DNA of 48,664 nucleotides from positions 1-48,664 of the forward strand of contig JAKSYS010000491.1 of the NCBI GenBank assembly GCA_022925895.1, written 5' to 3'. Source of the DNA: Fragilaria crotonensis. Lineage: Eukaryota > Bacillariophyta > Fragilariophyceae > Fragilariales > Fragilariaceae. Made by a program: the position numbers and the translations under genes. A model generated the notes under the pieces. It was not told where the DNA came from. It did not search any database and saw only the letters and a list, made by a program, of their open reading frames with translations. The stretch's first letter is position 1. Each line of letters opens with the position of its first letter. Shown here in pieces: positions 7,085 to 48,436 of this stretch.

Positions 7085-8542
7085 ATGTCACTTCACTTCG
7101 TTCCCATCGCCACAATATGTGTGCTGCTATCGGCATCTCTAGCAGTCGCAATTCCCGAACTTATACAGGTTCAAGTCATTACCTGACACGGATCGCGTAC
7201 CGCGCTCGAAAAGAAAGGATCAACTCTGGTGGAAACAACAAATCCCATTCTGACCCCCTTGGGAGAATTGCAACACTACAAACTAGGGACTTGGTTGCGA
7301 CAACGTTATGCCGTTGATGTTCCGTTACTGGGCGATTATGTCGCAACTCATGTGCGCTTTGAATCCTCAGATTTAGAACGTACCATTTCATCGGCAAACT
7401 CGCTCACTTTGGGGCTTTATCCTCCTGCCAATCGGACATCCAAAGATAGCTTGTTGCCATCCAATTTATACCCAGGCATTCCAATCTACATGAAGGGCAC
7501 TCGCAATGACATATTCATCCGCGCCTATGACAAGTGCCCCGCCTATCTTGACGCTTTGGCCAATCTATACGCGAACGATTCCTGGAAAACGTTGGAGGAC
7601 GACCACCGGCCGTTGTTAGACAACCTAGGTCAGGTTGCTGAATTTCAGCCGTATGTCAATGATGAAGGCTACGTACCTCTCAGTGACGTATGGAATGTGT
7701 TTGATTTGATAAATGTGGCGAAAACAGAATGTGCCGCTGCAACCACCACCAATGACACGGATTGCGAGTTTGACCCCCTGGATGACGACACTTGGTTGGA
7801 ACTTCAAACGATCACCCATCTGGCTGAATTTCAGCGGTATTCCAACACGACCGCGGGAGATTTGCTGGGAGGCAACCTCTTGCTTCAAATTCATCAACGC
7901 ATGGGAGGCAGTACCAGTGGCTTCAGTCCAGGAACAAACGCATCCGATGTCAAAGGCTTTCGCAAATTTTTTCATTACTCGGCACACTATCCGACTATTT
8001 TGTCGGTATTTGCAGCGCTGAATGTATTACCACCGTCCAATGAAGTTATTCCCGGGTATAGCGATGCCTTGATATTTGAATTGTACAACGATACTGAAAC
8101 AGGAGTGTACTCGGTAAACATGCTGTACAAGGAAGCTGATTTGCCAAATGCAACGACTGTTCGCTTTCCAGAAGGACCTTGTCAGGGAGCATCTAGCTGT
8201 TCCTTGGGCGATTTTACACAACTTTTGTCCACGATGAGTTTCACATCGCTGGAAGAATGGTGTGGCCAATGCGAAAATGAGTCTGCTGACGTGTGTCTCG
8301 AGGTCAAACTCGATGCACTGTCACCACGAGATACTACAACAGCATCTGCTGGTTCGGCGACTTGTTCCATCTCAGTTGGGCCATTGATTGTAGCACTCTT
8401 CGGGGGAATTGCACTTGGCGTATTGATGTATGCTATTTTCCAAAAAGTGATGACTAAGAAAACTGCAAAGGATGTCGATATAGAAGCTATCGATCCTGAC
8501 AAACGCATCAGCTTGGACTCGTCTGATATAATAATAAATTGA
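7085..8542 (+). pseudogene. Histidine acid phosphatase, membrane-anchored, with TGA at the RHG arginine
   Basis: One uninterrupted frame of 485 codons except for TGA at 7184-7186 (codon 34). Residues 1-22 form a signal peptide (MSLHFVPIATICVLLSASLA). The next segment reads VQVIT-stop-HGSRTALEKKGS, where the family has RHGxR; the stop is one transition (CGA to TGA) from the catalytic arginine. Downstream are LTPLGELQHYKLG, a conserved histidine-phosphatase block, and YSAHYPTI at residues 299-306, where many relatives have HD; the aspartate is tyrosine here. A transmembrane helix at about 431-452 is followed by a basic then acidic cytosolic tail. The domain would lie outside the cell or in the lumen and hydrolyse phosphomonoesters. 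The rest of the frame is intact. A dead allele, a base error, or read-through/editing are the options. Confidence 0.75.
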
Positions 8543-8721
8543 AGGTGAAATTAAAATTCAGTTCATTTTAAAGATTTGTCAACGTAGGGTGCAAAAAATT
8601 ACCGTATTCGATTCTTACTATGTCAAACTGTATGTCATATATATTGGAGGACTATATAGCTATATAGTACAAATACATTTGACATTTTCAATTTAGTCCA
8701 ATTTTGTTTGCACTTTATTAC
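8543..8721. other. 3' flank of the phosphatase gene
   Basis: AT-rich and TATATAG-containing. It probably holds the 3' UTR and polyadenylation region. Nothing else is seen before the transposon. Confidence 0.5.
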
Positions 8722-8729
8722 CACAACAC
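8722..8729. repeat. Target site duplication, left copy
   Basis: CACAACAC directly abuts the left terminal inverted repeat. The same eight bases follow the right terminal repeat at 13961-13968. Eight bases is the duplication length made by hAT transposases. Confidence 0.85.
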
Positions 8730-8748
8730 CAGAGTCCTGCACTGGGTA
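8730..8748 (+). repeat. hAT left terminal inverted repeat
   Basis: CAGAGTCCTGCACTGGGTA is the exact reverse complement of 13942-13960. The CAGAG start fits hAT ends. Confidence 0.9.
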
Positions 8749-8892
8749 CCCATACCCAGTACCCACCCAGTACCCACCCATACCCATGGATAATGGGTGG
8801 GTATGGGCACGACCAACCAGTGGGTGGGTGGGTATGGGTGGTCCAAACTCCACTGCGCAAATCGTGGGTGGGTAATGGGTGGTCTAACCTGC
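8747..8892. repeat. Left subterminal TACCCA/GGGTGGGTA block, G-quadruplex-prone
   Basis: About 8747-8787 is a run of TACCCA and ACCCACCCA words, so the minus strand is G-rich. From 8791 the polarity flips to GGGTGGGTATGGG words. The segment 8822-8838 (GGGTGGGTGGGTATGGG) meets the strict four-tract G-quadruplex pattern. Bases 8791-8892 align directly, at roughly 80% identity by eye, with 13801-13900 at the other end. Subterminal repeats of this type commonly serve as transposase binding sites in hAT elements. Confidence 0.75.
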
Positions 8893-8997
8893 CCACACGA
8901 ATCGACCATTGCACTCCATTTCTCCAAGTATCCTGTATCCTGTAGCTAGTAGCCATAGGGCACTCCAGTACCATTTCCTAGTGTGGTGCAAGGCGCA

Positions 8998-10228
8998 AAT
9001 CAATGTTGATTGTCACAATCCCCAATTTAATTCATATTCTGTGTTCAGACTTGGAGTTGCAGAAAATAGTCCTATCAATGCTTCATTGGTGATATTGATG
9101 GCACCCTTGGATTGTATGTACTAAGCTTACTCATAGACTAGTACACAAATCAATGTGCCTCAATCCCAAAGAACAGCTTGTCCTGGGTGCCAAATTCCTT
9201 TGTAAATGCAAAATGTGAGGGCTGAAATGGAGATGCAAAAATGCAACTGTCAGGAATTATGAAGATTTTTGGTCGTAGTACTGACGGCAGCCATTGATTG
9301 CAATGGATATGCAAACTGATTGACTAGTGGGCAATTCAATGAGCAATTTGCAACTATAGCACATTTGATGCTTTCCATTAAATGGATGATATTCAGTAGG
9401 CAGACAGTGAGATAAAACAAAATTGTACTGGTGTGGGTTGCTTGGTGTGCATTGATTGTATTGCTTGATGGCATCCTTGGAAGCGCTTCACTTTCCAAGC
9501 TCATTGACTTCTTGAACAAGATTCAATGCATGATCCCAGAATGCAATAAAAATACTATGCAGAAATTCTCATTTTGGAAATGAAAACTAGCTGTCATCAT
9601 GATGGTTTCTTAAGTGTGTATTGGGTGTATTGACAGCACCCTTTGATTGTCAGTACTATCCATGCCCATCAACACTTGTTGAATTCAATGCACAAATCAA
9701 CACTTTGGGTGTGGGATCCTAGTTAAAGAGGTGCAAAATCTGTGGTCAACCTGGGAATTGGAAAGTTTTGGTCAATATTTGTTGAGTTTTTATTATGTGT
9801 GGTATTGATGACACCCATTGATGGTAACTGACTTCTGGTAAACTCAGTGCACAAGCAAATCCAGCACACTTGTTTACTTGGTGTAGGATCCGTGCTCAAA
9901 TGCAAAAACTGCGGTCAGCTATGGGCATGGAGAAATTATTCTGTCAGTGTTTGTTGTATTTTCTTTGGTTGTTTTGTTGACCCTTCTTGATTCTAACAAC
10001 TTTCAATACAAACTGACTGTTGCGCAAACAAGTATGCAAAACCCTGAGAGTACACAACTTTTGCAGATTGGGGGTTCCCACTTCAATTCATATTCTGTGG
10101 TCAGACTTGGAGATGCGGAAGATGGTCCTGTCAAAGTCTCTTTCAGTTGCATTGGTGATAATCATGACACCCTTGGATTTTTGTAGTGAGCTTACTTATT
10201 GGTTGAATCACAAGGCGATGCACAGCCA
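8998..10228. repeat. Diverged ~175-bp tandem units inside the transposon
   Basis: Several degenerate copies of a unit seen more cleanly to the right are recognisable. Shared words are TCATATTCTGTG, GATGGCACCCTTGGATTG, GCACAAATCAA, AAATGCAAAATGTGAGGGCTG and GGAGATGC. The copies become more similar towards 10200, as in arrays that grow from one end. No coding potential is seen; short open frames match the repeat, not a protein family. Confidence 0.65.
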
Positions 10229-11041
10229 AGCCCCAAATATACAGGGTGCAGAGTCCCCATTGTAATGAAAAATCTGAGGCTGCATTGGAGATGCAGAACA
10301 AATCTTCTGTCAAGGAATGTTGAGGGTGTATCAGAAATGTTTTTGACACCCTAGGATTTTGTAGTGAGCTTACTTGTTGGTTGAAAGGCAAGTCAGTGCA
10401 CAAGCCCCAAATATACAGGGTGCAGGGTCCCCATTGTAATGCAAAATCTGAGGGCTGCATTGGAGATGCAGAACAAATCTTCTGTCAAGGATTGTTAAGG
10501 GTGTATCAGAAATGTTTTTGACACCCTAGTTTTTTGTAGTGAGCTTACTTATTGGTTGAAAGACAAGATAGTGCACAAGCCCCAAATATACAGGCGGGGA
10601 CCCTTTGTAATGCAAAATCTGAGGGCTGAATGAAAGATGCAGAAAAATGTTCTGCCAGAGTTTGTCAAGTTTGCATTGATGATACCGGCATCCTTTGATT
10701 GGAGTGGGTATATATACCCATTGACTAGTGTGCAATTCAGTGGGTAATTTGCCACAATTGCCGATACAGGGTTTTTATTAATGAATATTCTGCAGTCAGA
10801 CATTAATATTCTGCAGAATTGTACTGTTGTATTTTGTTGAGTGTGTATGGATTGTATTGATGGCATCCTGAGATCCTTTCAACCTTTTTGCTCATTGACT
10901 TTCAATTATGATGCCAAAATGCGAACAAAAAATACACAAAAATGATCAATACTCAATGGATTTTGGATTTTTAAAAAATCCAAAACTGGCATTTACTCCA
11001 TCATCAAAAGCCTGAGACTCATTGGCTGAAGCTCCCGCAAC
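10229..11041 (+). repeat. Left arm of a giant inverted repeat
   Basis: It runs from AAGCCCCAAATATACAGGG to GAAGCTCCCGCAAC and matches the reverse complement of 11204-12042, about 95% by eye. The outer part contains tandem units whose landmark GCCCCAAATATACAGG recurs at 10230, 10404 and 10579 (174 and 175 apart). The inner part is single copy and includes GTGGGTATATATACCCATTG and an AATATTCTGCAG duplicate. Confidence 0.85.
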
Positions 11042-11203
11042 AATATTTGCTTTGGGAGTTAGTGTTGGTGTTAGCGACATAAGTTAATGTGAAATTTAGG
11101 ATGCGATCACATGTTATCTACTAGTGTTGTAGTCACACAAATCAGAAGTACTTTATGTTCTGAGCTTGTCAGTTGCACTATAACAACCCTAGCATTGACT
11201 TTC
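11042..11203. other. Loop between the inverted-repeat arms
   Basis: About 162 bases of unique sequence lie between the arms. It contains GTTAGTGTTGGTGTTAGC but no gene that I can recognise. Confidence 0.6.
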
Positions 11204-12042
11204 GTTGCTGGAGCTTCTGTAAATGAGTCTCAGGCATTTGATGATGGAGTAAATGCCAGTTTTGGATTTTTTAAAAATCCAAAATCCAATGAGTATTGAT
11301 CATTTTTGTGTATTTTTTTGTTCGCATTTTGGCATCATAATTGAATCTTCAAGAAGTCAATGAGCAAAAAAGGTTGAAAGGATCTCAGGATGCCATCAAT
11401 ACAATCCATACACACTCAACAAAGTACAACAGTACAATTCTGCAGAATATTAATGTCTGACTGCAGAATATTCATTAATAAAAAACCCCTGTATCAGCAA
11501 TTGTGGCAAATTACCCACTGAATTGCACACTAGTCAATGGGTATATATACCCACTCCAATCAAAGGATGCCGTCGGTATCATCAATGCAAACTTGACAAA
11601 CTCTGGCAGAACATTTTTTCTGCATCTTTCATTCAGCCCTCAGATTTTGCATTACAAAGGGTCCCCGCACCCTGTATATTTGGGGCTTGTGCACTAACTT
11701 GTCTTTCAACCAATAAGTAAGCTCACTACAAAATAACCTAGGGTGTCAAAAACATTTCTGATACACCCTTAACAATCCTTGACAGAAGATTTGTTCTGCA
11801 TCTCCAATGCAGCCCTCAGATTTTGCATTACAATGGGGACCCTGCACCCTGTATATTTGGGGCTTGTGCACTGACTTGCCTTTCAACCAACAAGTAAGCT
11901 CACTACAAAAATCCTAGGGTGTCAAAAACATTTCTGATACACCCTCAACATTCTTTGACAGAAGGTTTGTTCTGCATCTCCAATGCAGCCCTCAGTTTTT
12001 TCATTACAATGGGGACCCTGCACCCTGTATATTTGGGGCTTT
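11204..12042 (-). repeat. Right arm of the giant inverted repeat
   Basis: It is the inverted copy of 10229-11041. Differences from the left arm are mostly single-base homopolymer length changes and a few short indels (for example an extra CGT near 11572). Past 12042 one further, strongly diverged unit can be followed to about 12175. Confidence 0.85.
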
Positions 12043-12175
12043 TGCATTGACTATCATACTAGCTAGTCAGCATTGAATAAAGGGATACAAAAATCCATGG
12101 GTAGAACAGTGAGAAAACCTTTAAGAATTATGTTTTGTATCTCTAACTCAGACTTCAGATTATGAACAAAAGCAA

Positions 12176-12666
12176 CGTGTAGTAAAAAGACTGTGTACTG
12201 GTTACTGGTGTACTGAAATCGCTGAACACCGGCGGTAGACTAAGGTGCTACGGTAGTACACCAAGTACAATGATTACGATTTGCCGACAACTGAGTAAAT
12301 TGATTTGATTTTACAGCAATAAGAATTTGTACAAACACCAGGACCATTTTGTAGTAGTAACTGAGAAGCCCTGATGGCATTAGATGTTTTGCTACTACTA
12401 GCTACTAGTATGCAAAGTTTAGTACCTAGTACTACATAGATAGGATGGGGGATCGGGAAGAGCACTGCCAAGTTCTAGTATACCTGCTGCTACCATAATG
12501 ATTTTACTGTACTTCCATCAAATACATTTAGCTGCTGTTTTTCTCTGTCTGCCAAAGCCAAGATATCTTCATCAGCAATCATGTCGACTCCGCCAGTCAG
12601 ATTCCGCGTCAGGCATTGTCATCGTTCTCCTCTTCAATCATCAGGTTCTGGCATGCAAGATTGTCT
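12176..12666. other. Internal transposon spacer
   Basis: Mixed sequence rich in GTAC and ACTAG words, leading into the 3' side of the transposase remnant. The minus-strand stretch around 12500-12650 is open for a while and may be the eroded C-terminal end of the transposase. No separate gene is supported. Confidence 0.4.
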
Positions 12667-13676
12667 TCAGCAGCAGCCAGCAAGAAATGGAGATCCAAGA
12701 TGTTGCAGCCACCACTTGCAGAATTGAGAACTTCTTGTTGTGTCCATTTTACGGAGAAGAAGAAGGTGCTTTGCATTAAAATGTATCGCAGTCCCGGCCC
12801 CTGTCTCAACCTTTGCAGCACCTAACCGGGCACACAAGCAACTGTGCACATGTTTTGGCGACTTGTGGTTTCTCTCTCGCCCACTTGCTCCAGCTACATT
12901 GCGGTGTACTGCAGACAGCAGGTGTTTGATTGAACTGTAGTCAGAGTCGTCGGACAACATCCGCAGCTCTGACGGTTTCATCATTGTATCCTTGAAGTTG
13001 CAAAACATCTCTTCATTTGAATTGTCGTGCTTGGACCTTGTAATGTAAGTGGCGAACTCACCGAACATTTTCTGATGACGGTCATCATTGCCATTTGCAA
13101 GACAAGCGAGAGCAATCTTGGCTTGTTGATTAATTGACGGCTTCCCCAGTTGAAGGAACTCTTCTCCGAATTCACCTGCAATCCTTGTCCGCCTCTCAGT
13201 ATACATTGGATGAGTTGCAAAGGCAAGTGCATGTGCTTCTGTGTAGATGGTTGCAAGACAATGGTCTGTTAGAATTGTCATTCAAAACAATATCATCATT
13301 ATTCAGGTTCAAGCCTTACTTGACAGCACCATCAAGCTTCTTCAGGTGATATTTTATTGCAACAAAGCAAGCATAAACAGACAAGAAGGCAGAAGGTAGC
13401 ATCCTTGCCTTCAAAATAGGTGGGACAGGAACTGATTGTTCGAAAAAGGACTTCGAAAGCGGCGACGCCCTTCCAATACGCTGGATCTGCGACAAGCTGC
13501 TTCAGCTTGTGCAGCTTGTCACACATGTCATGTCAAGAGAGGGGAGTAAGGGGTTGCTGTTTGATGGACAGCACGTGCAAAAAGCATGTTTAACTTCTGC
13601 ATTTCATCTGCCTTGAGAGAATCAAAGTGTTGCCAACCGCCAGAAAAGAATGATGAAATATTATACAGGTGTTGTA
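12667..13676 (-). pseudogene. Decayed hAT-like transposase
   Basis: Reading the minus strand from 13676, the translation gives pieces resembling hAT transposases in the right order: WQHFDSLKADEMQ and MLFARAVHQTATPYS (N-terminal region before the catalytic core); then WKGVAAFEVLFRTIS; then, after frame changes, SVYACFVAIKYHLKKLDG and EAHALAFATHPMYTERR; and finally FCKWWLQHLGSPFLA, like the WW dimerisation segment near the C-terminus. A stop near 13537, a frame change near 13385, and the loss of much of the central domain show that it is dead. A BED zinc finger is not seen. The longest open part is 12667-13281 (204 codons). Its position inside an element with hAT ends supports the call. Confidence 0.55.
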
Positions 13677-13784
13677 ACAGCGTGTATTAAACAGCAATTA
13701 AACAAACACATCCATAGTTATAGTTCGCGGAGTGCGTACTACAGTGTGCTCTCGTTTTGTGTCGAACAGGGACTTTTACGCGCG

Positions 13785-13930
13785 GACAACGGGTAATGGG
13801 TAATGGGTGGGTATGGGTACGACCTAGTGGGCGTGGGTGGGTAATGGGTGGTCCGAGCTTGACCGTGCGAAGAGTGGGTGGGTCATGGGTGGTCCAAGCC
13901 TGCGTACCGGCTGCCTTGGGTACCCATGGG
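13785..13930. repeat. Right subterminal GGGTGGGTA block, G-quadruplex-prone
   Basis: GGGTAATGGGTAATGGGTGGGTA-type words run through this block. The segment 13829-13848 (GGGCGTGGGTGGGTAATGGG) meets the four-tract G-quadruplex pattern. Bases 13801-13900 are a direct, diverged copy of 8791-8892. Confidence 0.75.
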
Positions 13931-13941
13931 CACAGGCGTCA

Positions 13942-13960
13942 TACCCAGTGCAGGACTCTG
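13942..13960 (-). repeat. hAT right terminal inverted repeat
   Basis: TACCCAGTGCAGGACTCTG is the exact reverse complement of the left terminus at 8730-8748. Confidence 0.9.
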
Positions 13961-13968
13961 CACAACAC
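13961..13968. repeat. Target site duplication, right copy
   Basis: CACAACAC immediately follows the right terminus and equals 8722-8729. Confidence 0.85.
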
Positions 13969-15034
13969 CCATGGAAAAACTTACAATTTAGTCCTTTTTT
14001 CAACAAAAAAACCCAATAAAGTCTGGCACGATAGTTTTAAGTTTTACCAGTCTGGGGGGCGGCCATTGGCCGCGGTTGTTGCACGACGGTAGAGGAGGTC
14101 TGGTAAGATCTATACGCAGAGTACGGAGTACGATTGCAAAATTTGTACCACGTTATAAGCATTGGAATCTGGAATTCAAAATATATTTTCCAGTACTCTG
14201 GACATTGGACATGTAGTTTCTACTGCAAAATTTGTACCACGGAATCTGGAATTCAAAATACATTTTCCAGTATTTCTAGACAGATCAAACAAACTGGATA
14301 TGGCATTAACGGAGTACTTGTACATAAAATTGTTGTCCGTTCTACACAACGATTCGTACCACGTTATACAATATACATTTCTGGACACAGTGTAAAAAAG
14401 TTTTCATGTAGATTTCTACTGAAAAATTTGTACCATGTACTTTTCTACCGCAAATGCTACGTCAGTACGTGGATTAAAAAATAAATATATACGATTACTT
14501 TTGAAAATACAGTACGACAATATCTGAGTTATTTTAGGTATATATAATAAAGTCTACAGGGTTAATGCCAATGTTTTGTACCAAGGTCTACGTGGGATGC
14601 AACCTATTAACATTAGTAAAATAATTCAATTGAATACGACTTCGGATGCGTTTGCACACATACTCACAAACAGGGACGTGGTCCAATGAGTCTGCATAGG
14701 TCGTGGCGATACTGCGACATTCGATGACGTGGCTTGCCAAGACTGCGAAGATTACGATGGTGGCGGTATTCGTGATGACACTCTCCAGCTGTGATATGTG
14801 GGAGGCGGTACCTGTGTTCGCATGTTCGCGTGTGATGTGGTGCACAATTTCATTTTGTATATAGGTTTTAGTGTTGAACTTGATCACAGTTCAGTGCAAC
14901 ATCATCATTGCATAAGCTTATCACTCGTTATCATCTTCAAGTCTCCCAATTCAAACGCAGTAGTGACTCCACAAGGCGAAGGCTCAAATACGAACTCTGC
15001 AACAGAGAAAATCGACTCGAACACTAGTAGTACC
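13969..15034. other. Intergenic spacer with short duplicated segments
   Basis: Contains the duplicated block described at 14135-14272 and AT-rich sequence. The last 150 bases probably form the 5' UTR of the dehydrogenase gene. An in-frame extension of that gene to 14798 exists but lacks a convincing leader. Confidence 0.5.
14135..14272. repeat. Two-copy ~78-90-bp repeat
   Basis: TGCAAAATTTGTACCACG occurs at 14135 and 14224. GGAATCTGGAATTCAAAATA plus ATTTTCCAGTA occurs at 14164 and 14241. Weaker GTACCACGTTATA-like echoes follow near 14345 and 14418. Probably an old local duplication or repeat remnant. Confidence 0.6.
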
Positions 15035-36300: not shown

Positions 36301-36449
36301 GCACGAGCACGGGCACGAGAGGGAGCTGGAGATGGACGTTTGTTCGAGACTGCAGGAGACGGCAATACCTTGGCATCAGCCTTGCGATCAGGTTTTGGTT
36401 TCTCTGTCTTGGCAGTTGATTTCTTGCCAAAGAAGTTCCTAATGTCCAT
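33305..36449 (-). CDS. RFC1: Replication factor C large subunit (RFC1)
   Basis: 1010 aa from exons 36449-35066 and 34953-33305, intron of 112 bases with GTAAGT and CATAG. RFC1 is the large subunit of the clamp loader that opens PCNA and places it at primer ends. The N-terminus MDIRNFFGKK matches the PCNA-binding start of RFC1 proteins, which fixes the start codon. Residues about 20-250 are charged and rich in SP/TP sites and lysine clusters (nuclear signals). A BRCT domain spans about 265-345 (LSGLTFVFSG, ELGGRVTTAVSSKTSYLV). Then come WADKYAP, the AAA+ Walker A GPPGIGKTT at about 497, Walker B CLIMDEVDGM, a sensor with CICNDRQSQK, and the RFC1 C-terminal helical domain (NYLKVMVGGY onward). 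It ends in an acidic then basic tail. No frame breaks. Confidence 0.95.
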
Positions 36450-37375
36450 TATGCTTGATTTTAATGGACTCCAATAAACTGCAACAAGAACCAGCGCCAC
36501 CACCCCTGTTCCAACAAGCGACAATTACTCTTACAGCGGTAGCAGTGGATGAATGAACCTTGACTTGATTATCGAAATGTGTTGCATGCATTGAAACCTA
36601 TGACAAAAATGTGACATACTGAGCATACATGTGGATACTGGCGGATGCACTCATCCAAGGTGCCGAGTGCCGAGGGATCAAACCGGAACCCTTTTAAGAA
36701 AAGGGTAACTGCCGCATAGTCGATGATAGTACCGGTACAAGTATCGTACCTGGTACTTGTAATCCACAAGCAGACAACCTTCCAGTACTGGTACATGTTT
36801 CGCTGGTACTCATAAGACGTATAATACTGTCGTACGGAGCATTCTTTCTCGTGACTCATTCGTTTTGGCGGGAGACCGGATTTTGAAGCAGGACACCGCA
36901 CAATGTAGCGTTTGACCTTTGGTGTATAATGTTCTACTGGCTACTGGTACTGGAAACAAGACACAAGCTGCTAACGACGAAACGTCTGCCGATCTAAAAG
37001 CCTTGGGATGGCTGGCGCGAGAATCGTCTTCTAGACTATATTGTTCTTCGGGAATGATGAAATTATATCAGATTCACGGAGAGTTACTTAGTGATTCAGT
37101 GACAGCGTTCAACGCCTGTCTTCATAATAATTCCTGCAAGACTTATTTTCACCTACATGTGGGTAAATCCTAATGTGACCCTCAACGCCTCAGATGTCAT
37201 ATGATATACCCTAAACAGCGATGCTTTAGGCGACGAAACTATACTCCCTCACATAATACATACTTCGTGTCCTTACCTTGATGCAACTTCGCGTGCATTA
37301 GGAGTTGAACCACAACTTTGAAGCACTGTGCTCATCATCGGAGACTCAGACTCATTATTCATAACAATAATCACA
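36450..37375. other. Divergent intergenic spacer upstream of RFC1 and the third LRR gene
   Basis: Holds the putative promoters of both genes and repeated GTACTGG/GGTAC words around 36730-36800 and 36935-36950. No gene is recognised. Confidence 0.5.
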
Positions 37376-39062
37376 ATGCGACTGTCGTCCGCGGCATTCC
37401 TCCTTTGGGCAGTCAATGCTGGTGATGCGGTGACAGCGTTACGAACCTCCCGACAAATGAAAGATGCTGAGCTCTGGCAACTAGAGAAGGAGGGCGATGC
37501 GTTTTGGGCCAAGTTCCTTCAGTTAGATATGAGTGTTCCCACCAGTCCGCCTGTTCCCCCGCCCACACCAAACCCGACAATTCCGTTATCCACACCCGCC
37601 CCAATGCTCCAAGTGTGGCGCCAGTGTCTCCCATTGCTCCTACCACAGCACCAGTGTCTCCCATTGCTCCTACCACAGCGCCAGTGTCTCCTATCGCTCC
37701 TACAACAGCGCCAGTGTCTCCAGTTGCACCCACGTTGGCACCAGTGTCTCCAGTTGCACCCACGTTGGCACCAGTGTCTCCAGTTGCACCCACGTTGGCA
37801 CCAGTGTCTCCTATTGTTCCCACTTTGAAGCCAGTCGTTCCAACCTCCGCTCCACTGGCACCCACTTCAAAGCCCGTTCTTCCCACGCGTGCTCCTGTCA
37901 AACTCTCGAAAGCGCCCACAAAGGCACCTACTGCAAAGCCCACAAAGGTACCCACTGCAAAGCCCACAAAGGTGCCTACTGCAAAGCCCACTTCTGCTCC
38001 TCCAACGACAAAGCCTACAAGTCCTCCCACTGAGGAGCCGACCCCTTCCCCTTCTTTTGCACCAACTAAAGCCCCAACCTCTTTCCCTACCAGCGCGCCC
38101 ACACTGGAATGCAATATCTCCGCAGGCGAGCGCGCGGTACTCATCGAAAACATCTTGAAGGGTGTGTCTGATCCCACTGCTCTAAGCACCACCGGAACAC
38201 CTCAAAATCTTGCTCAGAATTGGCTCATCAACTTGGATCCATACTACGTTTGCCCTCAGGACGACAAAGTTGTGCAGCGCTACACATTGGCTGTCTTTTA
38301 TTACTCCACCGAGGGCGACGATTGGGCCAAGTGCTCCGCACCGACTGACTTTTCGGATCAAACTGCAATTGATGTGGCGATTGCGAACTGCCCAGGAAAG
38401 CCGTGGTTGATGGACATTTCGGAATGTGAATGGGCTGGTGCAATCTGCAACGATGAGAACTCGACGGAGCGAATCGATATTGGTAAGTGGGAAAAAGTCC
38501 ATGTCTATAAAGTGGTTGTCATGTCTTCGTTTTCTAACCGATTATTCGAGCAGAAAAGAACGAACTGGGCGGTACTCTCCCTTCCGAGCTTGCCAGTCTC
38601 ACAGCAATGAAGTATCTCCTTTTGGAAGAGGGTCTCATCACTGGAACAATTCCATCTGAGTTGGGATTGTTGTCGTTGATGCTGCAGATCGACATGAATT
38701 TCAATCTCTTGAGGGGTAGTCTCCCCAATGAGCTTTTCAATTTGATCAACCTAACACAGCTGGATTTGAACGACAATGAACTGACTGGAAGCTTCTCGAC
38801 AGAAATTGGAAAGCTCACCAGTCTTTCGTTCTTGCAAGTGGAAAACAACTTTATGACTGGCACGATTCCGACTGAATTTGGAAATCTCGGCTTGTTGTCC
38901 ATTGCCACCTTTCATTCCAATTCGTTCAGTGGGACCATGCCGGCTCAAGTTTGCAGCAACACCACTGGAATGTTGATGGCGTTGACTGCCGATTGCCTTG
39001 GCGGACCATCCCGCCCATCTCCACCCTTTGTCGAATGTGCGTGTTGCACCCAGTGCTTTTAA
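37376..39062 (+). CDS. Secreted LRR protein with Pro-Thr repeat stalk
   Basis: About 538 aa from exons 37376-38482 and 38554-39062 (GTAAGT donor, GAGCAG acceptor). A signal peptide (MRLSSAAFLLWAVNAG) starts the protein. A stalk of about 200 residues consists of ten-residue APVSPxAPT(T/L) repeats and then eight-residue KVPTAKPT-like repeats, typical of O-glycosylated cell-wall or matrix proteins. Next is the cap shared with the two upstream LRR genes (YTLAVFYYSTEGDDW, CEWAGAICN), about five LRRs and a short cysteine end (CACCTQC). No transmembrane helix is seen, so it is probably secreted or wall-bound. One C is missing in CCCC at 37599-37602; with it the frame is continuous. The intron sits at the same place in the cap as in the 26699 gene, supporting common descent. 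Confidence 0.8.
37613..37815 (+). repeat. 30-bp coding minisatellite
   Basis: About seven tandem copies of a 30-base unit (GCGCCAGTGTCTCCCATTGC...) encode APVSPIAPTT and APVSPVAPTL. Three adjacent copies (about 37738-37830) are nearly identical. A second 24-base repeat encoding KVPTAKPT follows at about 37920-37990. Confidence 0.8.
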
Positions 39063-39648
39063 GTGGAAGATTCCTTATTTATTATTCATAGTTCTACTAC
39101 TATTACTCTTTACTAGCATTTACAATTTATAAATCTTTGAGCATGTATGCTGGTTTGTAGGTTGGAGTATCAGACGGGATGAAATTTGAAGACTGTTCTT
39201 CGGAGTACTTCTACTAGAGTCAACTCCTATCCACAGATACGGTAGTCTCTCTTCCTTGTAGACTAACTTCGGCGGTAGAAGTGAGTGTCCTCTATTTGCA
39301 AGCCTACAAGCAGTAGATCCACGTTTCCAGTCACGAGGCTTGAGTCACGAGCTCAGGTAATACTGCTGGTGCATGTACAGATGATGTACAGTAACATTTT
39401 TATCGTCAGACGACTCTGACCAACGGCGACCTGCAGCCTGCAGCCGGCATCAAGGGACTGTAGGCGACTACCGGTACTGCCTGATATGGTCATTGTTTTG
39501 TTTTTATGATAATATGCTTCATCTAAAATCCGAGCACTCCTGATTCTTGATCACCAATCTGCTCATCTCAACCGGAAGGCACTTGTACTAGATACTATTT
39601 ACAACTAGTGACACGGTCTCTCTCCGTCTGTGGTATGATATTGTGACA
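39063..39648. other. Intergenic spacer
   Basis: 3' flank of the LRR gene and promoter of the sulfotransferase-like gene. No further feature is recognised. Confidence 0.5.
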
Positions 39649-41035
39649 ATGTTCCACGGATCAAGAAGCAAACACATTGGATCTCGTCGGGGTCAACCAT
39701 TGCATGCGACAACCAGAAAATGGAAAGGATGTGGATTGTTTCCCGTGAGACTCTTTCTGGCTGTCACATGTGCTGGCATTGTTATCTTATACGTGTACTA
39801 CGTCAGGTCCATTGTCAACAATGCCCATGCCGCAATCAATGCTGCAACTGCACTGCCTCGGAACGAACAAATGTCACGACAGGCCAAAGCCTCCCATGAT
39901 CAAAAGCAAGATCTCAATCATAATCCAGACGATGTGAGTCGAAGCAACAGTAAGAAAATATATCAGGACTGGAGAGCTCTTGCAGTGGATTTGGCAGCCA
40001 AACCTGCCGATGAGATACTATCGGTTCTCGAAACACAAGATCCCTTTGGCGTGCGACGCTTTGAAAAACATCTTTTGGAAGCCGAATCTGCAAGAGGTGC
40101 CTTTCTAACGTCAGAACAATTGCAAGAATTGTTCCCCTGTCCTGTCGATCGCATTACTCTTCCGGATCAGCGTGATCGCACCAAAGAGAAGGCTTTTCGC
40201 GATCCCAGCAATCAAACCTACCTCTTCTTTCAACACCTCCGAAAGGCAGGTGGTACTAATTTTGTTCCTTGGCACAAGATAATCTCCCTCGTTCGGCTGT
40301 GGCATCCTATTTTTGCATGCCCGACATGGAATGGTCGGGCAAGAGGCAGTGTGCTGGATGTTTGGACTCGTACACGAATGCTCAAATTGACGACAATATG
40401 CATGCCAAGGGCCATCGCATCCTGGGCAATGAATGGGATGCGTTCGACCCGTCGCGATACTTTGCTCTGGATGCCATTTTTGCAACGTCGTTTCGGAAAC
40501 CACTGGACAGAGCCCTGTCGCAATTTAGATTCGAGTGCATAGAAGATCGCGGATGTAAACTAAAGAAGGTGGAGGATTTTGGGCGAAACGACAAGACTTG
40601 ACAAATGTATATACCTGGACGTTCACCAGGAGAGGAGTTCGCAAAATTTCTATAACGAATACAAAAGCAGCAGCTGACGCTAGACAAGAGGTCATGGGAA
40701 TGGCTCTCGATGTCGTGGCTCGTTTCCACCTCGTAATGGTCATGGAATGGTTGGCGTATGCCACGAAAGAAGTCGACACTGTGCTGGGCTTTCACGATAC
40801 GTCCGCGCTGACCAGGCGGGTGCGGCCTCATATCGCATCTGCGAAGCGTGAAGACGGACAAGAAAAGAACGTCCTTGGTGCTGCTGGCATTACCAAGGCT
40901 AGTTGGGACCCCAAGGAGTATTTATCACCACAGCAATACAAAATCATGAGCGAGAATCTGGCGTTGGACGAGATCCTTACTGATGCAGCGCGGCGCATGT
41001 TTCTTGAGCGACTTGTCTGCAACGACGTCTTATAG
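39649..41035 (+). CDS. Type II membrane sulfotransferase-like protein
   Basis: About 462 aa, single exon. A short basic cytosolic tail is followed by one signal-anchor helix at about 34-51 (RLFLAVTCAGIVILYVYYV), as in Golgi sulfotransferases. The luminal part has FFQHLRKAGGTNFCSLA, which resembles the 5'-PAPS binding loop (K.G.T), and FATSFRKPLDRALSQFRFE, which resembles the 3'-phosphate motif (xLRdPxxRxxSxyxf). The family transfers sulfate from PAPS to glycans or proteins. Two frame breaks occur where one T seems missing in TTTT runs (40260-40263 and 40577-40580). With both corrected the length is 1,389 nt. The acceptor cannot be predicted. Uncertainty is about the subfamily rather than the fold. 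Confidence 0.65.
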
Positions 41036-41400
41036 GCAAACGCTTCGTGACGGACACACAGGAGACTTCCAGACTCACGATGTCGGTAGCACTGATCAAG
41101 TAGACCACAGCCTTTCTAGTATTCTTTTCTAGTAGTAGTTTATTCGTGAATGCGCACACTCGGCCCTTTAACAAGGCACGGACACCACTTTAGCTAACAC
41201 ATAGGTGTGAATGGCGAATGCATATGACATGTGTGTGTAAACAAAACCAGCACGCCACAGACGCGGCAAGCCTTCTCCTCCGGCAAACTCGCCACGTAAC
41301 ACAATTGATTGATATGAATGTACATCGTTTCTCTTCGCGGTCTTGCTCCTGTATGATAAGTCATTCTTCTATTTGGTGAATCGAAACGACGCTGGTGATC
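41036..41400. other. Convergent intergenic spacer
   Basis: Region between the sulfotransferase-like and PSP1 genes, probably 3' UTRs. Nothing else is seen. Confidence 0.5.
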
Positions 41401-44034
41401 TTAGCGAATCCCTCCTGATCCTCCGTGCTCGCTCTGAGGGATTCCGTACGGATCATTGATGCTGTCAGCCATCACTGGAATCTGATTCATGCTTCCGTAA
41501 TCAACGAGAGGAGAGAGTGCCGCAGGAGATCCAGTTCCTGAGTTATTCTTGTCCAGCTGTTGCATCCAGATTCTCGTTTTGTACATGCTAAAAAGATCTC
41601 GAACCAGCTCGCGGAAGTCAATGCGACACTCAGCCTCGAAGAAGAAGGTCAGCTTATGACGATCAAACTGATACTCAGCATCAACGACGTGCATCGGAAG
41701 CGACCTCTGTTGAACTTTCTCGCGACAAACCTTGAGCAATTCCTCTTCCTCCTCGCGCTTGGCCGCCAACAATCCAACTTCGTCATGAGTGGCAAGTCGA
41801 ACAACGCGCTTTAAATCAGCTAGATTTGTCATCGAGGGTGCCAACAAAACGCCCATATCGCTAACACCTCCGGGAGACCCCGCCCCACGGAAAGCAGAAC
41901 GGCCAGCGACGTTAAATTTTTCAGCTGGAATCTTGTTGACAACAATACCAAGATCTTCGCCGCGATCAGCTTCAACTTTCACATAGCAACCGATTTTCAA
42001 ATCTCCAGCGACGCGAGGGCCTGGGATGAAATTTCGTTGCGTCCGCTTGAACTTTATCGTGTACACGAGTCGAGGGGAAGCCACGCTGGAACCGGAAGCT
42101 ACGCGCATCATAGAATCAGTGGGAACTTGGTGCGAAAACATACTCGTTTGAGAGCGTGACGACGAAGAACCCTCATTTCTCATGTACGCTGCTTGAGGCA
42201 TGTGGTGACCGGAGGGGATCATCGAAGAAGGATTTCCAAAACCCAGGTCATCACCAGGATCGTCGATGTCTTCTCCAGCGAGAGGGTGAGTTAGATCATC
42301 ATCGAAACCAGAAGTAGGCATTGCTCTCAAATCATGTGTACCATCGACAACGTATCTACCACCGCTCTATTCGGGAAAGGAAGGGTTAGACAAGGAAAAA
42401 ATGCACACGCCGTCCATGCAGCAACCACCGCCACGTACCCGAATGCTTTCGGACTGCAATGGCTCCGACGACGTAGGAGAGTAGTTGTAGTCATTGTGAC
42501 GACGAACAGGCACCTGATAGGGAACGTGATGATTCCTTCCGCGGTCGTCGTATCCTTGGCTTCCAAAGGACCGAATATCGTCTTGCGATTGACGGAGCAT
42601 CCCATTTCCGTCGGAACCAACGAACTCGTCACGACTGTGAAAGCTGGGAAAATTTTGTAGTCGGGATGTTTGGGCTGCGTACTGCGCTTCCCCAACAAAA
42701 TCAGTGTTCCTCCTTTGTAACATTTGACCTTCGAATCCGTGATGAGGAATCGCCTGCGACATGCTGACACTCCGCTGCATCAAGCTCGTTGAGGGGGCTG
42801 AATGAGCTGAATGGTGGTCGTTATATGACGGGGATCTCGGTAGCATACTGCTCCCTTGCACCCCGCGCCCGTAAATGTCGTCTCCTCCGTAGAAATGGTC
42901 AGCTCCGTCACTATGAAGCCGTTGATGGTGCACCCGACCTTGCTGATCTACAAACCTTCTATCGTCAGGTATTTCCTGACCGTTTACATGTTGAAGTGTA
43001 CCCGAGTGAGAGTACGAGCGAATATGCCGGGTGGGTGGCAGGACCTGTTGATGAGGCAAGCGTTGAATTTGGATGTTGCTCAGCGATGGCAAGTTGCCGA
43101 ACTTTTGGGTGTGGTCTATAGTGTGTGGTCGAAACTGCTCATTGTGAGCGCTCCGATTCAAATCTTGCAATTGCGGCTCTGACCCAGCAGTCAGAGATCG
43201 TGATCTCCCTTGAAGTCGTTCCGCCATATCAGAGCGCCCCCCTGGCATGTGCGAGTACTCTGACGAATAATCAGTCGAACCGGGACTTCCTCTACCACCA
43301 TAATTAGCGCCACTTCCAAAGCTGCTATCAAGAAAGGCCAGTTGGTTTGACTGACCCGACAGCGGTGGACGTGCGCCGCCACTCGTGCTACTCTTTGTAA
43401 TGAGCGATCGATTTCTGCGAGGATCTGGAGGGAGGCCACGCACGCGATCGCCATCTGTGTACAGCGGCGAGAGGTCGCCTGTCTGGAATGGGTTGACATC
43501 AATTCTGACAGGAGGAGACGAAGAAATAGGATAGATGGGACCGGGTGACGAATGCGCTCTCTCGCGTATGGCACCAAGTCCCAACAACCCGTCGTCAGGA
43601 TCCTCACTTCGATCAAAACTATCGGCGTCCGTGATGGCTCCCCAGTTTTGATCAAACCCACGGTGACTGAACGATCCCAACGTAGGTTCTGTAGTGAATA
43701 GAGAAACAAGGCGGGATTAGCAGATAGTTGATTGAAAGCATACACAGCTTGGACCAAAGTAATTGAGTACTACAAACGCACCAGAAAGTCCAGGAGGCTT
43801 GGGCAAGTATTTGTGAGAAAAGCTGCCCATGGGAGCCTGTGACGAAGGCGACGGAGGAAGGCTGTTGTTTTGAAGCTGATGAGAATCTGAGTTTGGAAAC
43901 GAGAACGACCCAAACGAATGATGACGATTATGGTGGTGATGATCGTCAGGTGCTGAAGATACCGACGAGCCTGATAGCGCCGGCGGTCTACTTCCACTTC
44001 CAGGCACTCTCGACACGAGGCTCAAGCCTGACAT
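41401..44034 (-). CDS. PSP1-domain protein with long low-complexity N-terminus
   Basis: 832 aa from exons 44034-43782, 43688-42409 and 42366-41401. The last intron is only 42 bases and very pyrimidine-rich, and the frame closes exactly across it. Residues about 1-600 are rich in Ser, Gly, His, Asn and Pro, with no fold visible. The C-terminal exon carries the PSP1 C-terminal region: YVKVEADRGEDLGIVV, RLATHDEV, then KREEEEELLKVCREKVQQ and the core DAEYQFDRHKLTFFFEAE followed by DFRELVRDLF. The family includes yeast PSP1, a suppressor of DNA polymerase mutants, and bacterial YaaT/RicT; its biochemical role is not settled. A further 5' exon may exist, since an acceptor-like TTGATATTTCAG lies just before the chosen ATG, in frame. 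Confidence 0.82.
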
Positions 44035-45585
44035 TCCAATCTCCAGCCCTTTTTGATCGTCGGAAGAACTGAAATATCAATTAAAATATGGTGAAGGAGG
44101 CGAGGTTAGAAAAACATGAAAAGTGACGCGAAGCCTTGAAATTGGTAACGTAAAACGTCTTGTACTGCCGGCAATCATAATATATATGATAAACGCATCA
44201 AAAGAACAGACGCACGATGAAAAAATGAAGAAAAGGCTTCTCGTTGCAAATTGCGAAATAAATGAACGCTTCGAAACTAGAAACATAATGAGGACGACTT
44301 GTACCGAACAAGGCTTCACAAGGACAAGGACTCGGTATTCATTGACACTCATGATCGGCCAAAGTTCTTGAATTGTCTCCTGTGCTAGTACTCCAGTAGC
44401 AGTATATGCTAATGGACAACGAAGGGTCAACTCAACTCAATTCAACCAGCCCCCATCAAGCCCACGAATATGAAACGATTGAACTGGTTGAGTGGTCATC
44501 ATATTCGCCACCGCTGTCATCGTTTCAGGGAATGGATGTGAAGCACTCTGGCAGAGAAATCACGCAAGCCTCTCCCTATATGCTGACGTAGAATTCTACG
44601 TCGGGCAAAGACGATGCACGTTCCCTTTCGTCCATGTTCGCGAGCGGTGCATGCAAGCCATTATTCGATCAAACTCAATGAAAATTTCCCCAATGCCTTT
44701 GCAACCACAACAACACTGCAATACTCACTAATGCGACGCCTCATTCCAATTGGAGACTGCGTGGGGCGCGCTCGCCGCCATTGTGCAGTTTCTGTAGGCC
44801 ACTGTGGCGCTGGGAATAATTGTCTGTACTTAAGAGTTTTGGTCAATTGGGATTCCGCATAAAAAGGAATCAGTACGATATGATCATTTCGGTACTTGGC
44901 GTACAGTGTATATTGTGTGGTACAAGTACAGGTACCATCCTGTGGGTTTCTGTGTATGGCGTATGCATTAGAATGTACCAGTATCGCAAGTTCATTTATG
45001 GAGTTCAACACGACCGAATTTTCGTTCATATGCAAGACCGGTCAGATTCCGTTCACTACATCCTTGGCTTTCTTGTAAAGCATCGCTGGTCTTGTTTCCG
45101 TGTTGGATTTGGATATGTGTCTGTGGAAACTTCTACTAGTGAATCGTTACTCATTACTCGTGACTCACAACACTTACTACAGTACCAGCCGTCAGTCAGG
45201 TATTCCCGTGTCGTGGAGTACCAGGTAGTCAGAGGAGTAGACACACAGAATCGGACCACCTCATTATAATCGATTTCTGTAATTCTGGACTCCGCAGTGT
45301 ACATTGTACGTGCTCCATGGCAATTCGTAGTCGAGTTTGCGACCATCACTGATCTCTGATATCTGATATCAGATTCCTCTGATAGATTTGAGAGGGGCGT
45401 GGCACGAATGGCCAAGTCAGATCTAATCCTTATTGCCATCACACTCCGGTATTGTATGTCTCACAACCATACCTAACAGCAATACATTGAGGAAACTCTG
45501 AGCTGAAGTGGTTTATCGTAGACAATATTCATCTTTCATCGAGCAACTTGGCAACGGACCGCACAATATTGATCATATTGAGACA
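44035..45585. other. Intergenic spacer
   Basis: A 1.5-kb divergent spacer. A palindromic cluster GATATCTGATATC lies near 45357-45370. A 149-codon open frame at 44820-45269 lacks an ATG at its start and any domain, so it is not called. GTAC-rich words are common. Confidence 0.5.
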
Positions 45586-47584
45586 ATGAAAGTTTCAACT
45601 CTTATTTTGCTAATTGTAAGGACATGGACTTGGCAACAAGTTGCAAGGTATGGCTCGGCATTCACCATTCCCAGGTCACAACAACGGTGGACTCAGCATG
45701 AGACCACCTCCATCACTACTACGACCTTGTCCATGAACAATATTGAACCCATCGAGGACTTTCCCAACGGCTCTCCAGATGTGAATGATTCTAGTGGTGA
45801 TAGTTTAACCGATGAGATTATCTCCGCAACTGTTGACGTTGCCAAGGATCTGGCGATTGCCGCCTTGGATGCGACAGAAAAGGGACTAGAAGCTATTGAT
45901 GATGCTCACCAGGTGAGCAAAGACAAGCTGAAAAAGGAGAAGAAATATCTAGTTATTGGTGGAGGCTGGGGTGGTTGGGGTGCCGCGAAAGCGCTTTGCG
46001 AATCTGGTATTGACGCCGAGGTTATCCTTTTAGATGCCTTGCCAGATCCAACTGGGAAAACGCCGTACCTCTCCAAGACAGGGAAGCCTGTCGAGGCCGG
46101 AACTCGTGGTTTTTGGAAGGACTACCCGAACATCAACAAGTTGTGTCAAGATCTAGGTCTCTCCGATGACGAGGTATTTTCTCCTTTCACAAACTCTTCC
46201 TTTTATTCCCCCGATGGCCTGGAGGCTACAGCACCTGTGTTTTCGGAGGCCAAGCTCCCGAAGCTTCCCGATATACCATTCTTTCACAGTTCTCAGAACA
46301 GCCTTTTCCACAGCTACCATCACCTCTGGGTCAAGTATTAGCCACATCTCAGCTGTTTGAAAGAATACCTATTCAAGATCGAGCCAGTATGATTGGCTTG
46401 CTGTTGGCTACAGTTGACTGTTTGGGTGGCAATCAAGAAGTTCAGGTTCAATACGATCGAATGACGGCTCATGAATTATTCCTTCGGTTCGGCATCAGTA
46501 AGCGACTTGTCGACGACTTTATTCGTCCCACCTTGCTGGTTGGTCTCTTCAAGCCACCCGAGGAGTTGAGTGCCTGGTCGTCATGGAGCTTCTTTACTAC
46601 TACGCATTGGCTCACCAGGATTCATTTGATGTGCGCTGGATACGCAATGGAACTGTGAGCGATTCCTTGATTGCGCCCATGGCAGAAAAATTACAGAGTG
46701 ATTATGATTTAAAGGTAATGGGTGGATGTCGAGTAGGAAAGATTTCTCTCGACTCCGTGGATGGACAGAAACTGAGTGTCTCGTCCGTGGAGTACACCAC
46801 CATGTCTGGGCAGAAGGAGGTGATCGATAACGTGGATGGTATCGTCCTGGCCTTGGGTTGCAAGGGTTTGGAAGCTGTTGTGAATGCTTCACCAGACTTA
46901 GCGAAACTTCCCGCGTTTTCTGCCGCGGCCTCGCTGAAGGGCATTGATGTGATTAGCGTTCGACTCTGGCTGGACAAGGTAGTTCCAACGAGAACGCCAG
47001 CCAACGTGTTTTCACGATTTGATGAATTGCGGGGTGCAGGTGGAACATTCTTCATGCTTGATCAATTGCAAGACAATAATGAGGCCTTGTGGGGAGGTGA
47101 GAAACCTCAAGGATCGGTCTTGGGATGTGATTTCTACAATGCTGGTGGTTTGTTGAGCCTCTCCGATGAAGACTTGGTTAGCATTCTGATGGAAGATTTG
47201 TTACCCAGTGCGGTTCCTCAGTTCGCCAATGCCAAGGTTGTCGATTCGTGGGTGGGAAAGTTCCCAGGAACTGTCTCGTGGTTTGCACCAGGTAGCTTTC
47301 TCAAGAGGCCTCCGACCGAAGGTGCTGGTCCGGTGTTGCCCACGGTGAAGTTTGCTGGTGATCTTGTACGAATGGGAGACCGCGAGCACGGAGCCAAGGG
47401 CCTGTGTCAAGAACGCGCCTTTGTGAGCGGTTTCGAAGCAGCCAATTCGTTACTGCGATCTACTGTGTCGAACTTCAACATGCATCCGGTACTAGCAGTG
47501 CGTGAGGATGAACCGTTGTTCAAGGCTGCAGTCACAATCAACAGGGGTGTCATGAACTACTTGCCTCGGTTCTGGGTTCGATGA
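45586..47584 (+). CDS. FAD-dependent amine oxidase/phytoene-desaturase-like protein, probably plastid-targeted
   Basis: About 666 aa, single exon. The N-terminus has a hydrophobic signal (MKVSTLILLIV) followed by YGSAF/TIP, matching the diatom plastid bipartite leader with phenylalanine at the cleavage point. An acidic helical spacer leads to the FAD-binding motif VIGGGWGGWGAAKAL at about 123-137. Later blocks (LAHQDSFDVRW, GIVLALGCKG, VKFAGDLVRM and the final GLCQERAFVSGFEAANSLL) are typical of the carotene desaturase-like flavoproteins that many algae have in several copies. The substrate is unknown. Two frame breaks, one T missing in TTTT 46304-46307 and one base near 46573, are both homopolymer-associated; with both corrected the length is 2,001 nt. 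Confidence 0.75.
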
Positions 47585-47713
47585 ACGAATAATCTTGGAG
47601 TAGGAGCTATGACATAATGTAAGAAATGAAGCATTATACATCTTGATTGGCGCTGTATTTGAATCGTTTAGATCACCGAAATAAACCAGAACACCCGTGA
47701 TTTGTTATAGGGC
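47585..47713. other. Short convergent spacer
   Basis: 129 bases between two convergent stop codons. Nothing else is seen. Confidence 0.5.
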
Positions 47714-48436
47714 CTAGAGCCAGGGGACAAAATGCAGAGCAAATAGACATCCGAACGCTTCCACTCCGAGGATAAGTGGCGATAGAAATCCCCAAACAGG
47801 CCAGATGGATCGAATCAGCATGATAGCAATCAAGATACCATTGACAGTCAGTGTTGGAACGACTCGGGGACAATAGACATCCCAAGCTGCTGAATCTGTA
47901 ATCCTCTTGACACGAGGCAGATACAGTACTAGGTATAGCACAAGAACGGTGCTCACTCCCATTAACACCACTGATGCATACAGAAGCGGTTTGACGATGC
48001 GCTCGTCATTCACAAGGATGGGGAAAAAGCGAGTAAATTTGGCAACGACAATTGCAATTGCGACCCAAACAACTGTCCTCGCGTGAACGTGGAAAAGAAG
48101 GTGAGAAGCGCAAATTAACAATCGGGTACTGATGACAGCATTGCACGAGAGTCCCTTGCTATCCTGAGACACTGACCACTTAGAGAGTGGGTGTACCTGA
48201 TATGGAGAGCTCTCCCTTACAAGGCATCGCCATAATGCTCATTGATATGGCATCAATCTGCAGTAGACCTTTCCACGCTCACGACTGCGACTTGATCACT
48301 CTCACTCTCACGTCAACGAAGGTAAACTACAATACTTACAGGCATACACTTTATCAAAAAATCGTTCTGTTCTTGAACGGCTAGTAACTGGGACATCGTC
48401 GCCTTGCGCTACTCGTCGGTAAGGGGCCGCTGCCAT
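47714..48436 (-). CDS. TMEM128-like four-helix membrane protein
   Basis: 151 aa from exons 48436-48340 and 48072-47714 (GTAAGT donor; acceptor GAGGACAG). Exon 1 encodes MAAAPYRRVAQGDDVP, a short hydrophilic start. Exon 2 encodes four hydrophobic stretches: VWVAIAIVVAKFTRFF, LLYASVVLMGVSTVLVLYLV, VPTLTVNGILIAIMLIRS and FLSPLILGVEAFGCLFALHF. WPVWGFLSP and the DVYCPRVVPT segment match TMEM128 family proteins, small ER-type membrane proteins of unknown function. The length is close to the family's usual 150-165 aa. Joining at these sites makes the FFDKVYAFVWVA junction continuous. An alternative open frame beginning upstream in the intron (48172) lacks this fit. Confidence 0.75.

Follow-up and report, generated by a model that had tools for sequence, protein, structure and literature searches.

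The window is a stretch of 48,664 nucleotides from Fragilaria crotonensis (GenBank assembly GCA_022925895.1, contig JAKSYS010000491.1, forward strand). It corresponds to contig C439 of the 62.1-Mb assembly, which comprises 881 contigs, and other contigs are labeled in the same way. Its genes appear diatom-like, judging by the resemblance of leucine-rich-repeat and Pro/Thr-rich proteins. A transposon of the hAT type, 5,231 bp in length, occupies positions 8730-13960. This element is very probably a non-autonomous composite, made of a short hAT and a nested transposon of a second family, TATSG, which has spread as a unit with a hAT transposase acting in trans. The features of the element and its flanks are as follows.

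8722-8729: left target-site duplication CACAACAC, found once only at the C133 empty site
8730-8748, plus strand: left terminal inverted repeat (TIR) of the outer hAT
8730-8988, plus strand: left portion of the outer hAT (the host), carrying GGGT-rich subterminal repeats, common to short elements that lack the cargo
8989-13716: nested TATSG-family remnant, left end lost, right end kept
9016-10654, plus strand: degenerate tandem array with a unit of about 175 bp
10228-11041, plus strand: left arm of the internal inverted repeat
11042-11203: loop of 162 bp, homologous and equally placed in related elements
11204-12041, minus strand: right arm of the internal inverted repeat, including about 2.5 array units (11607-12052)
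12547-13653, minus strand: remnant of the nested element's transposase
13698-13716, minus strand: right terminal repeat of the nested TATSG element
13717-13724: GTTATAGT, putative surviving target duplication of the nested element, its left copy presumably lost
13717-13960, plus strand: right part of the outer hAT, common to the cargo-free short elements from 13719 onward
13942-13960, minus strand: right TIR of the outer hAT
13961-13968: right target-site duplication CACAACAC

The left TIR reads CAGAGTCCTGCACTGGGTA and the right TIR is its exact reverse complement (19/19). A perfect 19-bp CAGAG TIR with 8-bp duplications had been proposed in an earlier sequence-only reading, and its coordinates and length were exact throughout. 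The assembly was searched for the TIR with up to two mismatches. There were 50 forward and 51 reverse sites, compared to 0 and 0 for the reversed pattern, a number beyond chance, and the ends define a multi-copy family, in keeping with that reading. Elements were paired by their order on the contig, using 100 listed sites of the 101. This gave 43 paired elements ranging in size from 439 bp to 15.2 kb, with 14 sites unpaired. Twenty-five elements were 439-537 bp, three were 775-1,158 bp, 14 (including that of the window) were 3.8-5.3 kb and one was 15.2 kb. Target duplications were assessed at 40 loci. Both ends were present in 36, both 8-bp flanks were readable in 33 and the flanks were identical in 31 of these. 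The duplications follow the pattern nTnnnnAn, with T at position 2 in 26 of 31, A at position 7 in 30 and both in 25. This is the target rule given for Hermes in the portion cited of PMC10368747. The outer element thus has the short TIR and 8-bp target duplication of a hAT. A requirement for the 175-bp array in transposition of the outer element was considered and is unsupported, as short members without the array carry identical duplications.

The proposed hAT-type insertion was further borne out by an empty site, which the sequence-only reading had named as a check. Contig C133 carries the left flank of the window, a single CACAACAC and about 74 bp of the right flank before the sequences diverge, with single-base indels. 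Outside its own locus the left flank (8100-8729) matched nearly identically once, at the edge of contig C133, and weakly (68%) at two further places. None of the other element copies was retrieved with it; homology therefore ends at the left tip, where the sequence-only reading had placed it. On the right side, repetition of the flank in the genome sets in only about 64 bp outside the element. The empty site suggests that the insertion is recent and perhaps heterozygous. A repeat of approximately 500 bp (14034-14552) begins 74 bp past the element, and C133 diverges from the window near its start. Dozens of genomic copies exist, often in tandem (at least 66 matches, from 40 scored candidates).

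Six short cargo-free elements with the ends of the window element were compared to it. The right side of all six aligns with it from 13719 as far as the tip. On the left, the alignment of four is unbroken between the tip and 8983-8988, while C659 and C15 align piecewise to 8983 and 8979, respectively. The end of this similarity was taken as the left limit of the nested remnant. The left and right parts are separated by no more than 21-23 nt of host sequence in five of these elements. Similarity of a 15.2-kb element on C393 to the window likewise begins at 13719. The TATSG terminal repeat of the window ends at 13716 and matches that of C416 at 39 of 45 bases (13672-13716). It is followed by GTTATAGT, where the cargo-free element on C141 reads GCTATAGT. 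As the TATSG repeat ends and the host resumes at this point, the right junction is read as a TATSG insertion. Among the long copies tested the right junction was common to 17 of 17 and the left junction to 15 of 17; the others were C668, which starts at a contig edge, and C94, which is truncated. The simplest reading is that one founder composite apparently arose and was later amplified as a unit through its outer ends. A further composite appears to be present at C204:56550-61477, which has window-type ends (four mismatches in one), flanks agreeing at six of eight positions and an array like that of C175 inside.

A complete TATSG element was found on C175 (92887-100524; 7,638 bp). It is flanked on both sides by GTCGTGTC, has the ends TATGGAATTGTATG and TATCGAATTGTATT and encodes an open 801-aa transposase. 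The element on C824 is 3,171 bp with ends as in C175 and the duplication CATACGAC. The element at C416:124400-127308 is 2,909 bp with related ends and the duplication ATTCTGCC. It has an 806-aa frame, with the N-terminal part of this relative in a different frame. An 8-bp target duplication was therefore found in C175, C824 and C416, which are all the elements for which both ends were located. In a search, the C175 left end recurred in full at three further loci (C824, C783, and C38) and in part at additional ones. On C38 a window-type hAT left end (40848) is followed 1.7 kb on by an exact TATSG left end (42575); the right ends were not found within the stretch of C38 examined.

The sequence-only reading had described a broken transposase in the window element. 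A remnant is present, but it is not that of the outer hAT. Its pieces match residues 137-173, 460-534, and 537-797 of the C175 protein, and residues 174-459 are absent. The remnant frames matched no Pfam family up to E 1, with a chance match to NOA36 (0.27) in another frame. For the TATSG transposase itself no Pfam family was matched up to E 10, and three further frames gave none up to 0.1. A search of PDB gave one irrelevant match only (E 0.99), and a profile comparison with five hAT frames of the same genome gave no significant match (probability 0.1). What we take to be a D, D, CxxH, ER-type order of motifs was visible by eye.

The tandem array and giant inverted repeat had been described as cargo unlike that of a normal hAT. 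Both are real and are features of the nested family. Within the array, at 9285-9571, there is an old copy of the arm core (68%). An Rfam search of 8600-14100 gave nothing at gathering thresholds. Downstream of its transposase the C175 element has an inverted repeat with 234-bp arms, identical at 232 positions. It is homologous to the inverted repeats of C515, C277, and C273 (61-63% in long alignments), and its arms were 67-72% identical to those of the window and five other elements in shorter local alignments (scores 44-67, shuffled maximum 25). The 188-bp array of C175 is dissimilar to the 175-bp array of the window. This 188-bp (377-bp higher-order) array adjoins the inverted repeat in C175, C748, and C212 (L070:1-2100, L064:4131-5801, and L061:4405-6501). 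Rows of its end box are also found on C324, C656, C465, and C417, no more than about 400 bp from PF05699 matches, and arrays may therefore often lie next to hAT genes in this genome. A nested foldback element with the arms as its own ends was rejected because the shared sequence extends beyond the arms into the transposase remnant. Long inverted arms do not form the termini of the window element, where the arms are internal and the termini are 19-bp repeats.

An interior like that of the window, 84-87% identical, was found in elements on C277 (8,015 bp), C273 (5,660 bp), and C515 (5,646 bp). The C277 element has intact ends with a duplication and also carries the inverted repeat. It encodes an open 727-aa hAT frame, Hermes-like (50628-52811), with matches to PF05699 (E 1e-21) and a Hermes DNA-binding domain (E 8.5e-6). 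The ends were compared over 230 bp and scored against 100 shuffles. The window ends scored 8 and 10 against C515, within the shuffles. The right ends scored 14 against both C277 and C273, again within the shuffles (maxima 20 and 19), and the left ends scored 16 and 17, one point over the top shuffle, with the first 18 bases visibly similar. The ends of C515 are therefore unrelated to those of the window, and the likeness to C277 and C273 extends little beyond the TIR.

Evolution of the inverted repeat is concerted. Arm-to-arm identity within a copy was 90.7-98.9% in the 23 copies with both arms. Between the window family (14 copies) and the nine others the arms averaged 89% whichever sides were compared. 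A tree was constructed from 20 arms of ten of the 23 copies, picked for their known orientation. The arms of C273, C515, and C277/C284 clustered by lineage (bootstrap 100), and constraining all left arms together was rejected (AU p 9e-95). Within the window family the picture was mixed, with means of 98.5% for left-left, 96.0% for right-right and 96.5% for left-right comparisons between copies. The loop was 162-168 bp in 14 of the 16 copies measured, with 151 bp in C251 and 146 bp in C281. The C251 loop is reversed (94.7% inverted, 73.0% direct) and that of C281 fits both orientations about equally. A loop match was listed for both C658 and C560, outside the 16 measured. The inverted repeat is unlikely to have arisen independently in each lineage, as the loop is homologous and equally placed, and recombination between arms is the likely cause of their similarity.

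Recombining arms can remain alike without selection, so their likeness is no proof of function. Folded as RNA, 10640-11619 gave -713 kcal/mol compared to a mean of -229 for 20 shuffles, which only restates the palindrome. A tentative and less probable view is that the inverted repeat is maintained as a functional component of the TATSG family, acting as a DNA hairpin or giving rise to double-stranded RNA, and is not a passive palindrome. It is raised because the C175 arms are nearly identical beside an open transposase, yet only 61-72% like those of other members in sequence, and because the repeat has entered at least three kinds of hAT host without losing its symmetry. The insertion itself is ordinary, and the maintained internal palindrome is the most unusual part of the element.

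No hAT transposase is present in the window element, in agreement with the earlier suggestion that it could not supply its own. The same reading had called for a full-length transposase sharing these ends. An element with identical ends and hAT-type frames was found, but its domain matches were under the Pfam cut-offs. This element, C393:35016-50219 (15.2 kb), has the perfect ends of the window and GTCTGTAG at both flanks. Its lower strand has two open frames (46287-48174), with matches to zf-BED (E 0.0016) and Dimer_Tnp_hAT (E 0.0017). The motifs VFDGW, GDN, CGAH, and ECERLFS, which are presumably the hAT catalytic and CxxH motifs, were seen by eye. The 79-nt stretch between the frames, likewise read by eye with the frames not joined, starts with GT and ends with AG, and its removal would preserve the frame. 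Relatives of the N-terminal frame on C55, C71, C23, and C15 adjoin PF05699 matches above the cut-off. The C393 element is the likely helper, and its hAT protein would act in trans on the CAGAG ends. Further long ORFs (36401-46400; up to 827 codons) are present in the C393 element, and two of the ORFs outside the hAT frames had no Pfam match up to E 0.1.

Several observations weigh against a composite moved in trans. The flanks of C76 and C560 are not identical (2/8 and 7/8). C133 could be a paralogue instead of an allele because its match to the window ends 74 bp after the site. The C393 domain matches fall a little below the cut-offs, and other unnamed ORFs occupy much of its 15.2 kb. The TATSG transposase has no significant hAT match in Pfam, PDB, or the profile comparison. 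The left end and left duplication of the nested element are missing, and the case for nesting is therefore that of the right junction. An end capture, in which CAGAG hAT ends became attached to a portion of a TATSG element through recombination or a faulty gap repair and no whole TATSG element ever inserted into the hAT, would account for this left junction and for the differing limits of the shared interior in C277, C273, and C515. It is nevertheless improbable, as at the right junction the TATSG repeat stops exactly where the host resumes, as an insertion would leave it. Nesting is thus favored over capture.

The window element could also be an internal-deletion derivative of one autonomous hAT, with the broken transposase, array and inverted repeat being the outer element's own. 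Ds-like deletion derivatives are common, and in the long copies the remnant transposase does lie inside CAGAG ends. Intact relatives of that remnant, however, sit within other ends (C175 and C416), no CAGAG-type end was found around them within 3-4 mismatches, and the TATSG terminal repeat at the right edge of the cargo leaves a junction that largely refutes this origin, which is very unlikely. An assembly artefact, with the inverted repeat and its symmetrical arms produced by chimeric long reads, is scarcely credible. Single-base indels, many in homopolymer runs, do occur in the assembly and several copies lie at contig ends, but the loop is homologous and of nearly constant length and the arms group by lineage with lineage-specific differences.

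Under the composite reading a short hAT (about 0.5 kb, with CAGAG ends and nTnnnnAn duplications) would have been the insertion target of a TATSG transposon in which a transposase gene is accompanied by tandem repeats and a nearly perfect internal inverted repeat. The left end of the nested element would then have been lost together with about 20 nt of host, as would the central part of its transposase gene. The composite would have spread as a unit of about 5.2 kb by means of a hAT transposase acting in trans on the outer ends, the best candidate gene being in C393:35016-50219. Elsewhere in the window a 166-bp tandem repeat is present at the left edge (14-533) and a 30/60-bp repeat lies within an ORF (37616-37823).

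The element was compared to known systems as described in the portions cited of each paper. It resembles Hermes- and Ac-type hATs and Ds-like derivatives in its short TIR and 8-bp nTnnnnAn duplication (PMC10368747, PMC3260210), in the BED-finger transposase of the candidate helper, and in having non-autonomous members, both short and long, with nothing but the ends in common. It differs in that about 4.7 kb of its interior belongs to a second transposon, which has a giant inverted repeat inside it. Drosophila Tetris and its MITE relative DAIBAM, together with Drosophila Galileo, are nearest in architecture, with arms that are terminal. Tetris and DAIBAM are similarly non-autonomous, with tandem repeats (about 220 bp) in the arms, 8-10-bp duplications, a short end-sharing relative and signs of repeat homogenization. 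The repeat-bearing arms of Tetris are its termini, whereas those of the window element are internal and its outer ends are unrelated 19-bp repeats (PMC4079207). Galileo, of the P superfamily, also has long arms that contain tandem repeats, copies that undergo exchange with one another, and chimeric copies with an interior from another subfamily. It differs in transposase superfamily, in its 7-bp duplications and in its terminal arms (PMC3573991). The portion cited of PMC4168063 has little bearing on this comparison. No title or abstract in the open-access literature searched described a hAT with an internal foldback.

The assembly shows the stages of a two-layer transposon, from the cargo-free host and the complete guest to the composite, the amplified composite and the empty target. 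It offers a natural test of guest transposons hitch-hiking on host ends. The guest palindrome is symmetrical across lineages differing by at least 11%, which makes it testable whether palindromes in transposons are selected or self-correcting.

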